Assembly: GCA_031262935.1 (NCBI GenBank)
Contig: JAISGU010000018.1
Span: 1-35,996 of the forward strand
DNA: 35,996 nt
Origin: Mycoplasmataceae bacterium
GTDB taxonomy: Bacteria > Bacillota_I > Bacilli_A > Mycoplasmatales > Mycoplasmoidaceae
Direction: 5' to 3'
The position numbers and the translations under genes are program-made. Positions within the stretch are counted from its first letter, which is position 1, and each line of letters begins with the position of its first letter. The notes under the pieces are model-generated. The model searched no databases. It was not told where the DNA came from and was given only the letters and a program-made list of their open reading frames with translations. Positions 29,306 to 34,519 of the stretch are shown piece by piece.

Positions 29306-30043
29306 TTACATATTAAAACATTTATTAGTAGTAATAAAATCTACACCTCATTTAATTAATTTTCTTATTTGCTTTTCTTTATCTATAGTTCAGACGTTAA
29401 CTTTTAATGCATTGCTATGAAATTGTTTGACTATTCATTTATTTAATAATCGATATTCAATATCAATGTTATGTTTTGAATTAATGTGAGATTTAATTTT
29501 CTTTTTTAATAATGATGGGAAAAGAAAATTTATTTTCTTTTCATGTCAAATTAAATACGCAATATTTGTATTTCGATTTATTTGTTTTAACATTTCACAT
29601 ATATTGTGATTAAAACTAATAAACATACATTTACTTAAAGAAATATATTTTTTAACTAATGTAATTAATTGTTGAAGATTATTAAGTGATAGATTATTTT
29701 GTTTAATTTCAATTACTGGATGCTTTTTAAATTTATTACATATTTTTAAATAATTATTTAATAAAGGGATTGTTTCTATATTGTCAAATCTATATTTAGA
29801 AAATTGATTTGATAGTTTGTATGTTTTAATTTCATCATAATTACTTTCATTAATTCTTAAATTATTGTGTGGAGCAATAAAAGGAGTTTGCTCATGACAA
29901 CAGACAAATTTATTATCTTTTGTTAATCATATGTCTGTTTCTATTCCTCAAAAGAAATCACTTTGTGCGGCTAAAGTAAAAGATTTAATAGTATTTTCAA
30001 ATGCTTGACTACTTAAACCACGATGAGCAATAAACTTAATCAT
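29306..30043 (-). CDS. glpQ: Glycerophosphodiester phosphodiesterase
   Basis: 245 residues (several TGA=Trp). Cleaves glycerophosphodiesters from deacylated phospholipids into glycerol-3-phosphate and an alcohol; in mollicutes the product can feed glycolysis or peroxide-forming GlpO. TIM-barrel GDPD motifs: A-H-R-G (res ~6-9), E-T-D-I-W-L-T-K-D with the metal-binding Glu/Asp, C-C-H-E in place of the usual H-D/H-E, and E-I-K in the middle strand; the end is W-G-V-D-F-I-T-T-N. ATG at 30043 stands only seven bases after TATAAT, so the mRNA is probably leaderless. It is divergent from metK and leads a pair with the lipase-like gene. Confidence 0.88.
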
Positions 30044-30049
30044 ATAGTT

Positions 30050-30055
30050 ATTATA
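30050..30055 (-). promoter_or_regulatory. -10 box of glpQ
   Basis: TATAAT on the minus strand, 7 bases from the start codon. It lies back-to-back with the metK -10 box nine bases away, so the two promoters may exclude each other. Confidence 0.45.
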
Positions 30056-30064
30056 GAAATAACA

Positions 30065-30070
30065 TATAAT
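30065..30070 (+). promoter_or_regulatory. -10 box of metK
   Basis: TATAAT; transcription should start near 30077, directly before the structured leader at 30080. No good -35. Confidence 0.45.
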
Positions 30071-30079
30071 CATTTTCAT

Positions 30080-30217
30080 CCATAAAGAGTGTGGTAGAGA
30101 CAAGCTCATTAACCACACACCAACCTTCTAATGTATTAGAAAGGTGGTAAGACTTGAATGATGGTAGTTAAAATATATTCATTAATCAAGTTCTCATATC
30201 TTTATGGGGACTTTTTT
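30080..30217 (+). promoter_or_regulatory. S-box (SAM-I)-like riboswitch candidate in the metK leader
   Basis: The elements occur in S-box order. P1: CCATAAAGA (30080-30088) with TCTTTATGG (30199-30207), 9 bp. P2: GTGTGGT (30089-30095) with ACCACAC (30112-30118), inner GAG/CTC and loop ACAAG. P3: CCAACC (30120-30125) with GGTGG (30143-30147), reproducing the S-box pairing of GCAACC with GGTGC including the unpaired A, with a compensating G-C to C-G change, then TAA. Pseudoknot: loop CAAG (30101-30104) with CTTG (30153-30156), where S-boxes pair CUGG with CCAG. P4: AATGA (30157-30161) approximately with TCATT. The place before SAM synthetase fits. J4/1 is longer than usual, so it is a divergent member or a related class. 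Known biology: SAM-I binds SAM; binding here is inferred. Confidence 0.65.
30188..30217 (+). terminator. Intrinsic terminator of the metK leader
   Basis: AAGTTCTCATA (30188-30198) pairs with TATGGGGACTT (30203-30213), 11 bp including two G-U pairs and a UCUU loop, followed by a U-run (30212-30217). It lies between the leader and the metK Shine-Dalgarno AGGAG (30223-30227). Its loop and 3' arm share bases with the 3' strand of P1, so the two cannot form together. Confidence 0.65.
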
Positions 30218-30234
30218 GTTGTAGGAGAAATAAT

Positions 30235-31365
30235 ATGAAAATGAATTTATATACAAGCGAATCTGTTGGCAAAGGACACCCTGATAAAATATGCGATCAA
30301 ATCGCTGATAGTGTTTTAGATGAGTGTTTAAAACAAGACAAGAATAGTCGTGTTGCTTGTGAGGTGATGGCTAGTAATCATTTAATTGTAATTGGTGGAG
30401 AAATTACAACTAAAGCATATGTTGATGTTGTAAAAGTAGCATGAAGTGTTTTAAAACCGTTAGGATATGACGAAAATGATTTTACTATTTTAAGCAACAT
30501 AAATAAACAATCTCCTGATATTAATAAACAAGTTGACAAGAAGAATCGCCAAATTGGTGCTGGCGATCAAGGGATAGTTTTTGGGTATGCTACAAATAAA
30601 ACTAAAAGTTTTATGCCATTATCAATTGTGTTGGCTAATGAACTTGTTAGATTAGCTACAAAATTAGTTGATCAAAATAAATTTAAAGATGCTAGATACG
30701 ATATGAAATCACAAGTATCAATAGACTGAACCAATGCTGATAAACCAAGAATTGATAATATGTTAATGTCAATACAACATAAACGAAATGTAAATTTAAG
30801 TAATTTTAGAAAATTTGTTATCAACAACATCATGAATGTTGTTGCTAAAAAATATAAATTAAATTTAGATTTTAAAGCAAGAGTTAATGAAACGGGAGAG
30901 TTTATAATTGGTGGACCAGTTGGTGATACAGGGTTAACTGGAAGAAAACTAATGGTTGACACGTATGGCGGTATTTCGCATCATGGTGGTGGGGCTTTTA
31001 GTGGCAAGGACTATACCAAAGTTGATCGAACAGGCGCATATTTTGCTAGATGAATAGCTAAAAATATTGTTGCAAGTAAGCTGGCTAGTAGATGTGAAAT
31101 ACAAATAGGTTTTGCAATTGGTGATCCATTTCCTGTAAGTTTTCATATCAATTGCTTTGATACAAATGAATTTGATATGAACAAAATTTACAAAAGTGTT
31201 TATAAAACATTTAATATGAATTTAGCAAATATTATTAAGGAATTAAATTTAATGAATCCTATTTACAAACAAGTATCAGTATTCGGTCATTTTGGTAGAG
31301 ATGAATTAAATTTGTCTTGAGAAAAAACAAACAAAACGAAAGAATTAATAAAGAATGTTAAATAG
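30235..31365 (+). CDS. metK: S-adenosylmethionine synthetase
   Basis: 376 residues, normal length. Makes SAM from methionine and ATP, the methyl donor for enzymes such as TrmK in this window. Motifs are [10 protein letters not shown] (ATP), [24 protein letters not shown] and [14 protein letters not shown] with the phosphate-binding loop. ATG at 30235 has AGGAG seven bases upstream. TGA codons are Trp. The 3' end overlaps the convergent secDF stop by 8 bases. Expression is probably set by the leader riboswitch and terminator. Confidence 0.96.
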
Positions 31366-31378
31366 TAACGTTTTGTTT
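31326..31378 (-). terminator. Terminator-like inverted repeat at the metK/secDF junction
   Basis: AAACAAAACG (31329-31338) and CGTTTTGTTT (31369-31378) form a perfect 10-bp inverted repeat across both stop codons with a 30-base loop. On the minus strand the stem is followed by GTTTTTTC, suiting a terminator of secDF that lies within the metK coding end. The large loop makes it weaker than the others. Confidence 0.45.
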
Positions 31379-34300
31379 AATTCTCTTATTAATACCAGGA
31401 ATTAATTGTTCATCAACATTATCATAATTACGTTTAGTAGTTTTAACAATTTCTGAAGAGCTTGTTAAATAATGATATTTTATAACTAAAAATAAATAAA
31501 GAAGTATTGGTGTGATTGAATATAAAATTGGAGCGGTTGTCAATAACCCAATTAAACAAATTGCAAATGTGATAACTAGGTTTGTTGATGACATTAATAA
31601 TAAAATGGTAAATGATAAAATGACAAATGCATAAAAGAATAAATAGAAAATTAAATCATTCTTGAATTCAAGATTCATAACATATTTTAAATCATTGTGA
31701 TTTAAAACTTGTTTTCTTAATCAACGATTATTTAAATTTGCAATTAAACTAATTGTAAAATATGCATTGATTGTGTAAATTAATGTAATTGCTAAAACAA
31801 TATTTAAATCAAAAGGAATTTGTATTAATGATATTAGACCTAACATTAATAACGGTAAGAATGTTGTAGAAATAAAAACAGAAATGACACTAACTCAATT
31901 TAATCTAATTAGTGCATATGCAGAAAGGAAGCCACTTGCAATTAAGATCATATTTATACTATTTTTTAAGAAGATAATCACAGAGCCGTTATTAATGCTT
32001 TCAACAAAGTAATTAATTCCTTCGATCCCCAATGTCGTTAATAAAGTTGTGTCCGGATTAAAACCGTAATATAAATATGTTCAACCATCACTATCAATTT
32101 TGTAATTATATTTTGCTCATTCATTAGTAAGTTTGCTAATATCATTGCTATCTAATACAAGTCTAGTTCCACCATAAAAAGAATAAGAGGCATGACTACC
32201 AATAGTAAATAATAGAATAACACCAATAATTACGATAGCAATAATTATTGACATTACAAGAATTTGCTTTCAACCAAAAATATTGAATTTTTTTTGTTCA
32301 AAACCGCTATAAAAAGTTGTTTCATAAACTTTATTATTCAAATCAATTTTATTGTTGTTTTGGTGGTTTTTAAATAATACCCAATTGCCATATGCTAATT
32401 TTCGACGATGCATATTAATTTTATTTCTAAATAATAATCACATTGTTATTGGTCATAAAACTATCACAAAACCTATCGATAACAAACTTAAAATTAATAA
32501 GGAACTACCAAAATCAGTAATTTGAACATCAGCAAAATATGTTACACAAAAAGCAATTATTAACATCACAAAATGAATATCAAGCATTGGTAAAATACCA
32601 CGCTTGATACCACGAGTAAATGCAACTTCAAATGGAACATTGGCTTTCGTTTGTCTGCGTATGCGTGCCATTAACAAGAAGATTGATAACATTCCACCAA
32701 TCATACCCGCAAATAACCCTATCAATAATGGTGTTGTAACAACATACCCTGTTAATAACATAATCATAGCGGTTAATGATGTGGCAGCTAATATGGATAA
32801 GAAACCCATTGCCCCAGGAATACGATATAAAATGGAAACAATAATACCAATTAAAACAATAATAACCATCAAAGCAATAAATGCACCGAATAATGCAGTA
32901 TTACCAAAAACATTATTTGTTAAAGTCTTATCGATGGTTTTGACTTGATTTTTAATACCATATAGCATGTCGTTTTTAGTAAATCCGAAATACACACCGT
33001 TATTAGTTTGATCGTTTTCATTATTTAAAGCAAAACCATCAAGGCCATTACCGTTGTTCATTGCTAATACAGGTAATTTAAAATTAAAGTCTTTTACACA
33101 ATTATAGATATCTTGCGATGTGTATAGATTCTTAGCTTTAATTGTTAATCAGTTATATTGATCTACATCAACTTTTTTATCTTTAGGAGACTTATTCGGA
33201 AGAATGTTTAAGAATGATGTGGCATCAGGGTCGGCATTTTTTTCAGGAATATCTGATGATTTACCAAGCGCCATTACATATTGTTGCATGAAATCATATT
33301 TAACTTTCGATACATCATGGTCATCAGGTTTAGAATCATCTTGACCTTGTTTACCGTCGCTATCAAATAAAATCGGTAGTACACCTAATGGTGTGTCAAC
33401 ATCTGTTTTACTATTTTTGTCATCCATTTTTAATTCAATTGGTCCAGTCGAAGGAATTTGATAATTGGCATAAATCAATTTATTTTCAGTTTCTTTTTCA
33501 TTGTGAAGAACTGTTTCTAAAAAGCCGTTTCCGATACCTAAATTAGCTTTAATATTCTTATAAAATTCACCATCTATTTTTTCAGTAGCATCCATATTAT
33601 CATAATATCTTTGAATGTTAGCTGGATTATCTAAATCGCCACTAAAGACATTTGAATTACGTTCTTTTAAATAATCAACTTGCAAATCAGTCATACAACG
33701 ATTAACTAAACCATTTAAATCTCTAACAATGTAAATGTCAGAATTATTAATTATGGAATTTTTTTCACCATCTTTAACATTTTTAAAGTAATTATTAACA
33801 TAATTAGATAAAGAGTTTTTCAATTTGATATTAACTGTTAATTTATCAGAACTAAACGAAATATCATCATTATTATTAGAAATAATGTCGTTTAAAGGGA
33901 TGACAACAATTTTACCATTATTATCACCTTCTTGTTGCGAATAAAGATTCATCACAATAGATAATCTTGAATCGTTTACATATTTAATGTATGTGCTTAC
34001 TGGATCTTTGTCTAAGGTTTTGTTTTTATCATATGATATTTCTTTTTCATAGGTTTCATTTGGTAAAATAGCATTAATATAGGCGTGGTCGTTAATGATG
34101 ATATTGTTGTCATCATTACCATTATGGATGTATTCAGGGTAAACATTAAAATTATCGATATTTTTAGAGTGTAAGTATCGACTATATGCATCAGCGGATT
34201 GATTTAAAGCCTCTTTAGCATCTTCGACTAAATTAGCTTTTTTATATTGTTGTAAATTATTATCACTATATGGGTTTTCACTATGATTTAAATCTAATTC

Positions 34301-34519
34301 AAATCTTATGTTGTAAGATTTGTTAAATTCGCTACCAGCTTTATATTTTCATATAGATATACCAATACCAGTTCCACCAGACGCTAAGGTAATAGTTGAT
34401 AAAAATATTGAACTAAAAATACTAAATTTTCCACGTTTTTTTGCTGGATCAGCAGGATTTTTAGTAGAAACTTTATTTGTTCTTTTAAATACCTTAGCAA
34501 TTGATGATAAAAAGCTCAT
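31358..34519 (-). CDS. secDF: Fused protein-export membrane protein SecDF (divergent)
   Basis: 1053 residues (UGA=Trp). There is one N-terminal helix (res ~34-57) and a very large extracytoplasmic region (~58-535) of low similarity, rich in Asn/Asp. Five SecD-type helices follow (~543-690), with Y-R-I-P-G, the R-I-R-R-Q loop and G-I-K-R-G-I-L-P-M-L-D as in SecD G-F-R-R-A-x-S-T-I-L-D. A SecF half (~745-1000) begins with a helix and Y-S-F-Y-G-G-T-R-L-V, the SecF D-F-x-G-G-T. SecDF pulls secreted proteins out of SecYEG using the proton gradient. The Asp positions of the SecD TM4 and SecF TM4 motifs are replaced here. ATG at 34519; -10 TATAAT at 34539..34534. Confidence 0.8.

Follow-up and report, generated by a model that had tools for sequence, protein, structure and literature searches.

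The window, by which we mean the whole 35,996-nucleotide stretch of DNA analyzed here, carries a metK gene on the plus strand (30235-31365) encoding a methionine adenosyltransferase of 376 amino acids. Its product scored 479.8 bits against TIGR01034 (cut-off 309.4) and its reading frame contains four in-frame TGA codons. This bears out an earlier note on this DNA, made from the letters alone, which had placed metK in a mollicute that reads UGA as tryptophan. Upstream and divergently oriented lies a gene for a glycerophosphodiester phosphodiesterase (GDPD; 29306-30118, minus strand). The likely ATG of this gene is near 30043, so the RNA described below is intergenic. On the other side, a 1053-amino-acid open frame on the minus strand (31358-34519) adjoins metK and gave no Pfam match at an E value of 0.01.

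An Rfam covariance-model scan matched RF00162 to positions 30077-30167 with 48.0 bits (gathering score 44.4). This was the sole gathering-level match to an RNA family within the 36-kb window, and in clan competition among the SAM-family models RF00162 was the best for this segment. PyrR and other cmscan matches in the window were rejected, as their scores were far under their gathering scores. R2, a covariance model built on the form without helix P4, gave the window aptamer 91.8 bits, although the window sequence is itself among those from which R2 was built. The leader (30077-30220) folds with z = -4.54, and none of 200 shuffles was equally stable. We conclude that the plus-strand segment 30077-30167 is almost certainly the aptamer of a SAM-I-type (S-box) riboswitch of the RF00162 class. 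We infer SAM as the ligand of this RNA, a reading that metK among the downstream genes supports.

The aptamer is built of three helices. P1 pairs CCAU (30080-30083) with AUGG (30161-30164). P2 (30089-30118) has an outer helix (30089-30095 with 30112-30118) and an inner helix (30097-30099 with 30105-30107), which flank a kink-turn-like internal loop (A30096 opposite AUUA, 30108-30111), and it ends in the loop ACAAG (30100-30104). P3 (30119-30148) pairs CCAACC (30120-30125) with GGUGGU (30143-30148), has a terminal loop of 4 nt (UGUA) and contributes the pocket bases A30122 and U30145; its pair 30120-30147 is C-G, where most relatives have G-C. A 12-nt joiner (30149-30160) occupies the place of J3/4, P4 and J4/1. 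Within it, CUUG (30153-30156) forms a pseudoknot with CAAG of the P2 loop (30101-30104), and A30152 and U30159 form a lone pair. P2 with its inner helix and CAAG loop, P3 and the CTTG are thus where the earlier note had put them, but its P1 needed correction to CCAU/AUGG. The longer pairing of CCAUAAAG with CUUUAUGG (30080-30087 with 30200-30207) was rejected as the aptamer's P1; it is a competing helix that reaches outside the aptamer and is not conserved.

The pairings were conserved, with covariation, when related metK leaders were aligned. In 12 sequences from the same family, 93.7% of the cells of the proposed structure were paired, and compensatory changes were present at 15 of 29 pairs, a number reached by none of 500 shuffles. 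Adding eight Mycoplasmopsis-family copies (20 sequences) raised this to 19 of 29 pairs (0/500 shuffles). In this larger set P1 varied with compensation (C-G/U-A and C-G/G-U, with C-G replaced by U-A in eight sequences), double-sided changes also occurred at all four pseudoknot pairs, and P2 covaried. Over 95 distinct rows of the P4-less form, double-sided changes were found at 23 of 29 pairs, again unmatched in 500 shuffles; the pseudoknot was 98.9% paired, with compensatory changes in all four of its pairs. From the alignment alone, RNAalifold predicted P1, P2 and P3 and nothing else. Together with the RF00162 score, and a search across the SAM clan that placed SAM-I above threshold, this covariation supports the original proposal of an S-box or SAM-I-like riboswitch in front of metK. 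It also agrees with the observation that P3 and the pseudoknot had changed on both strands with pairing kept. The suggestion that the C-G of P3 and the CAAG/CUUG pairing are special core changes did not hold, however: both are ordinary variation within the larger group, and the swap from G-C to C-G in P3 occurs in 4 of the 12 family sequences.

The SAM-I riboswitch, which is among the most studied of RNA switches, has P4 as a standard component. The absence of P4 is the real peculiarity of this locus, and it was overlooked in the first reading. The distance from P3 to P1 is 12 nt in the window, but most ordinary metK leaders of the SAM-I type that we measured have 22-31 nt there; these were the automatically measurable leaders of named Bacillota, and the few other values were apparently mis-registered. 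The ordinary metK leaders show a P4 hairpin in this stretch, while the joiner in the window contains none. The joiner is exactly 12 nt long in 91 of 94 readable high-scoring copies. P4 has thus been reduced to a single pair, A30152-U30159. Across the P4-less set this lone pair is 90% paired and occurs as G-U, G-C, A-U, U-A or C-G. Barrick and Breaker (PMC2258182) described a single pair at this position, joining the nucleotides that immediately precede the pseudoknot strand and the P1 3' strand. In the same order, the Spiroplasma-like families f8 and f9 keep a short P4, as judged by eye.

Because the window RNA passes the RF00162 score and has no P4, we class it as a SAM-I variant and not as one of the standard members. 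An S-box before metK is expected biology, whereas the P4-less SAM-I form is, as far as we could check, a new variant. No description of P4-less SAM-I RNAs or of S-boxes in mollicutes was found in the open-licence papers that we searched.

The ligand pocket is conserved in spite of the shortened scaffold. The SAM-contact positions of the T. tengcongensis aptamer are A6, U7, G11, A45, C47, U57, A87 and U88. The equivalents of A6, U7, A45, C47, U57, A87 and U88 are invariant in the readable P4-less copies, and that of G11 is kept in 95 of 96. The base equivalent to C8 is A in 87 of 96 copies, so that the C8-G86 pair adjoining the pocket is replaced by A.G. The first G.A of the P2 kink-turn is retained in about 94 of 96 copies; in the window this position is A.A and the next G.A is U-A.

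Upstream of P1 lies TATAAT (30065-30070, plus strand), a probable -10 element. Each of the 12 family sequences has a TATAAT-like hexamer before P1, at a distance of 7-8 nt in nine of them, and so do all eight Mycoplasmopsis-family copies (9 nt). Shuffles of such A/T-rich DNA also yield many TATAAT-like matches; the better evidence is the spacing between hexamer and P1, which is fixed at 6-9 nt in most leaders. Because of this fixed distance, transcription probably starts at the first base of the aptamer.

Downstream, positions 30188-30213 (plus strand) form a predicted intrinsic terminator with an 11-pair stem, the loop UCUU and a U-run at 30212-30217 (-12.0 kcal/mol), the U-run lying about 20 nt ahead of the metK start codon. 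Three terminator-like sites were found in the region compared to 0.4 expected from shuffles. Similar hairpins were found after 84 of 93 leaders from Bacilli and after 8 of 11 from the family; the other three family leaders have no recognizable terminator, and the output step therefore varies.

Two mutually exclusive folds were predicted for the leader. The minimum-energy fold is the antiterminated state (-42 kcal/mol), and the alternative, comprising the aptamer (-23.6) and the terminator (-12.0), is weaker by about 6 kcal/mol. The predicted antiterminator (30151-30192, plus strand) pairs 30151-30157 with 30186-30192 and 30159-30164 with 30179-30184, and its strands take in the pseudoknot strand and the P1 3' strand. 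In the same fold 30079-30088 (the P1 5' strand and J1/2) pair with UCUUUAUGGG at 30199-30208 (plus strand; the terminator loop and 3' arm), forming ten pairs (p about 0.01 against shuffles) in what would be the ligand-free, ON state. With 30151-30164 and 30079-30088 both re-paired, both arms of P1 would exchange partners with both arms of the terminator. Because 30079-30088 pair with 30199-30208 in this minimum-energy alternative, the long CCAUAAAG/CUUUAUGG pairing is best modeled as the helix of the ON state.

Six of 11 family leaders and 36 of 93 Bacilli leaders contain, farther downstream, a motif with complementarity to the P1 5' strand, compared to expectations of 0.3 and 2.7, respectively; these expectations come from mononucleotide shuffles, related sequences counted at full weight, and the motif lies partly beyond the terminator. 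We hypothesize that this motif might lock the ON state by pairing with the P1 5' strand. Ungapped complementarity for the P1 3' strand was weak in single family leaders (significant in 1 of 11) because antiterminators hold bulges.

These folds suggest how the switch could work. Bound SAM would hold P1 (30080-30083 with 30161-30164) and the pseudoknot together, the terminator at 30188-30213 would form and metK would be off. At low SAM, CUUG and the P1 3' strand would be taken up into the antiterminator with the terminator 5' arm, the P1 5' strand would pair with the terminator 3' arm, and transcription would run on into metK. The gap of roughly 6 kcal/mol between the two folds could plausibly be covered by the ligand and the pseudoknot.

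The genome that contains the window is a 0.74-Mb draft of the same family as Mycoplasmoides fastidiosum, in a different genus. RF00162 matches were found in 10 of 95 genomes of the family, in this genus and a sister genus. Wherever the downstream gene of a family copy was readable it was metK in all cases but one, where the RNA precedes a gene of no assigned function (L012); another copy (L011) is ended by the end of its contig. The metK of one genome, G073, is 100% identical to that of M. fastidiosum. All nine genomes of the genus with the RNA also encode metK, compared to 20 of 27 without it; this is the expected direction, although the numbers are too small to serve as proof. Conversely, no RF00162 match was found in 20 of the 29 genus genomes with metK, and seven genus genomes have no metK.

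Beyond the family, R2 matched 123 of 395 sampled Bacilli genomes at an E value of 1e-4 or better, a cut-off at which the weaker matches take in ordinary S-boxes; in named metK leaders these reach at most 52 bits. Our detailed set was composed of the matches scoring more than about 60 bits, together with five contigs of phage or viral origin (94 readable copies). The five contigs are a Ruminococcus phage (L198, PV036439.1), MT835503.1 (L201) and three from IMG/VR (L195-L197). A match to R1 in one genome (L109 in G244) was set aside, as it resembles protein-coding DNA with an APTGSGKT-like motif. A partial copy on the Psychrobacter plasmid pA53P4 (L200, 2498-2594) matches the Bacilli form in its 5' half (89% identity across 47 nt), has a degenerate 3' half and looks like a transferred or decayed piece. 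Three Mycoplasmopsis metK leaders (L112, L121 and L122, in G178, G199 and G191, respectively) carry a more divergent SAM-I-like RNA below RF00162 detection, with a pseudoknot such as UGAC/GUCA and a tiny P4. In G199 and G191, the element CUUCUUUAUGCCUC could pair with the aptamer 5' strand or, via CCUC, with the ribosome-binding site.

Among 84 proteins encoded downstream of P4-less copies in Bacilli and phages, metK was the commonest named family (13), followed by priA (11), N-formylglutamate amidohydrolase (5), AAA/MoxR ATPases (5), glutamyl-tRNA synthetase (2) and EamA transporters (2). Many of the remaining proteins are small and have no Pfam match. In three of the priA cases metK lies farther along the same strand, no more than about 5 kb away. 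Most of the Bacilli copies are followed by genes for which no connection to SAM is known. Most Mycoplasmopsis-family copies are followed by DUF4116 proteins (PF13475), for which we know of no connection to SAM; in L102-L106 the P4-less RNAs come with terminators, and in one genome (G189) three copies, one of them degenerate, lie within about 10 kb of sequence. MoxR-type AAA ATPases are found behind the RNA in L172, L176, L179 and L199. The next protein in L179 resembles a zinc metallopeptidase/VWA partner, and in L199 (Mycoplasmopsis cynos, NZ_LR214986.1) the ATPase is two genes downstream; this arrangement is reminiscent of MoxR-VWA systems. Behind the phage and viral copies, the next proteins are small (98-136 amino acids where read) and of no assigned function, apart from a longer protein behind one IMG/VR copy.

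Taken together, we consider it highly probable that the window RNA acts in cis as a SAM sensor of the SAM-I (S-box) type, built as a compact three-way junction without P4, and that it represses metK through early termination of transcription. The minimum-energy fold has exactly the shape of an ordinary four-helix SAM-I, with CCAUAAAG/CUUUAUGG as P1 and the hairpin between them as P4. This assignment is very unlikely, since the long helix would consume J1/2, of which the SAM pocket is made, and the pseudoknot strand would be lost to its hairpin; furthermore, 91 of 94 relatives keep the short P1 and the 12-nt joiner, while the long helix falls in or beyond the terminator and is absent from several of them. 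Membership in SAM-IV or SAM-I/IV is extremely improbable. SAM-IV also has no P4, and its pseudoknot strand runs directly into P1 (PMC6890682), but RF00162 is the best model in the clan, the short P3 loop leaves no space for PK-2, and P1 is followed by a terminator rather than P5. SAM-I/IV does not have the P2-loop pseudoknot that is present here.

The ligand might also have changed, for instance to SAH or a different adenosyl compound: the genes behind many P4-less copies are unlinked to SAM metabolism, and the C8 next to the pocket is replaced by A. We regard such a change as quite improbable, since metK follows the RNA in the window and most of the family copies, and the bases of the pocket are unaltered. 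Finally, control could act on translation instead of transcription. In one relative (G047, L009, aptamer 1501-1587) the metK start codon lies within the P1 3' strand (CGAUGUCGA), which suggests direct translational control without a terminator, and some Mycoplasmopsis metK leaders resemble translational switches. For the window leader, however, the 11-pair terminator and its U-run shortly before the start codon make translational control unlikely. Transcriptional control of metK by a P4-less SAM-I RNA remains our preferred explanation.

From sequence comparison, the compact form is common in small-genome Bacilli and some gut phages and, as far as we could search, undescribed. Its wide occurrence shows that very little scaffold is enough for the SAM pocket, and an aptamer of about 90 nt is a small RNA for structural work. 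Rfam scores for P4-less copies in this order are about 29-63 bits, near or under threshold, and therefore many copies are probably unannotated. SAM sensing may extend to genes of unassigned function, phage-borne ones included. It could be speculated that RNAs without P4 make up a fourth, distinct architecture within the SAM clan, spread through small-genome Bacilli and their phages, tying the level of SAM to non-methionine genes (DUF4116, MoxR-type ATPases and small phage-borne proteins) and perhaps sensing methylation capacity or phage attack on SAM; we consider this broader idea doubtful, if worth stating.

Compared to the known classes, the window RNA is closest to SAM-I (RF00162), with which it shares P1, P2 with its internal kink-turn position, P3, the P2-loop pseudoknot, the SAM-contact bases, the terminator/antiterminator output and the metK target. 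It departs from SAM-I in the missing P4, the 12-nt stretch in place of a J3/4-P4-J4/1 segment of 22-31 nt, the A.G in place of C8-G86 and, in the window copy, the A.A and U-A in place of the kink-turn G.A pairs. The Spiroplasma-like S-boxes (f8 and f9) are likewise metK leaders matched by RF00162, but they retain their short P4. SAM-IV (RF00634) has no P4 and no SAM-I kink-turn, and has P5 and PK-2 (PMC6890682). The window RNA resembles it in the lack of P4 and in a P1 3' strand that comes almost directly after the pseudoknot strand (PMC6890682), and differs in its SAM-I-like kink-turn position, its top score with RF00162 and its predicted fold, in which we saw neither a P5 after P1 nor a PK-2 from the P3 loop. 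With SAM-I/IV (RF01725) it has in common the core around the ligand; that class has P4 and PK-2 and no P2-loop pseudoknot (PMC6890682), and in P4 and the P2-loop pseudoknot the window RNA is its opposite.
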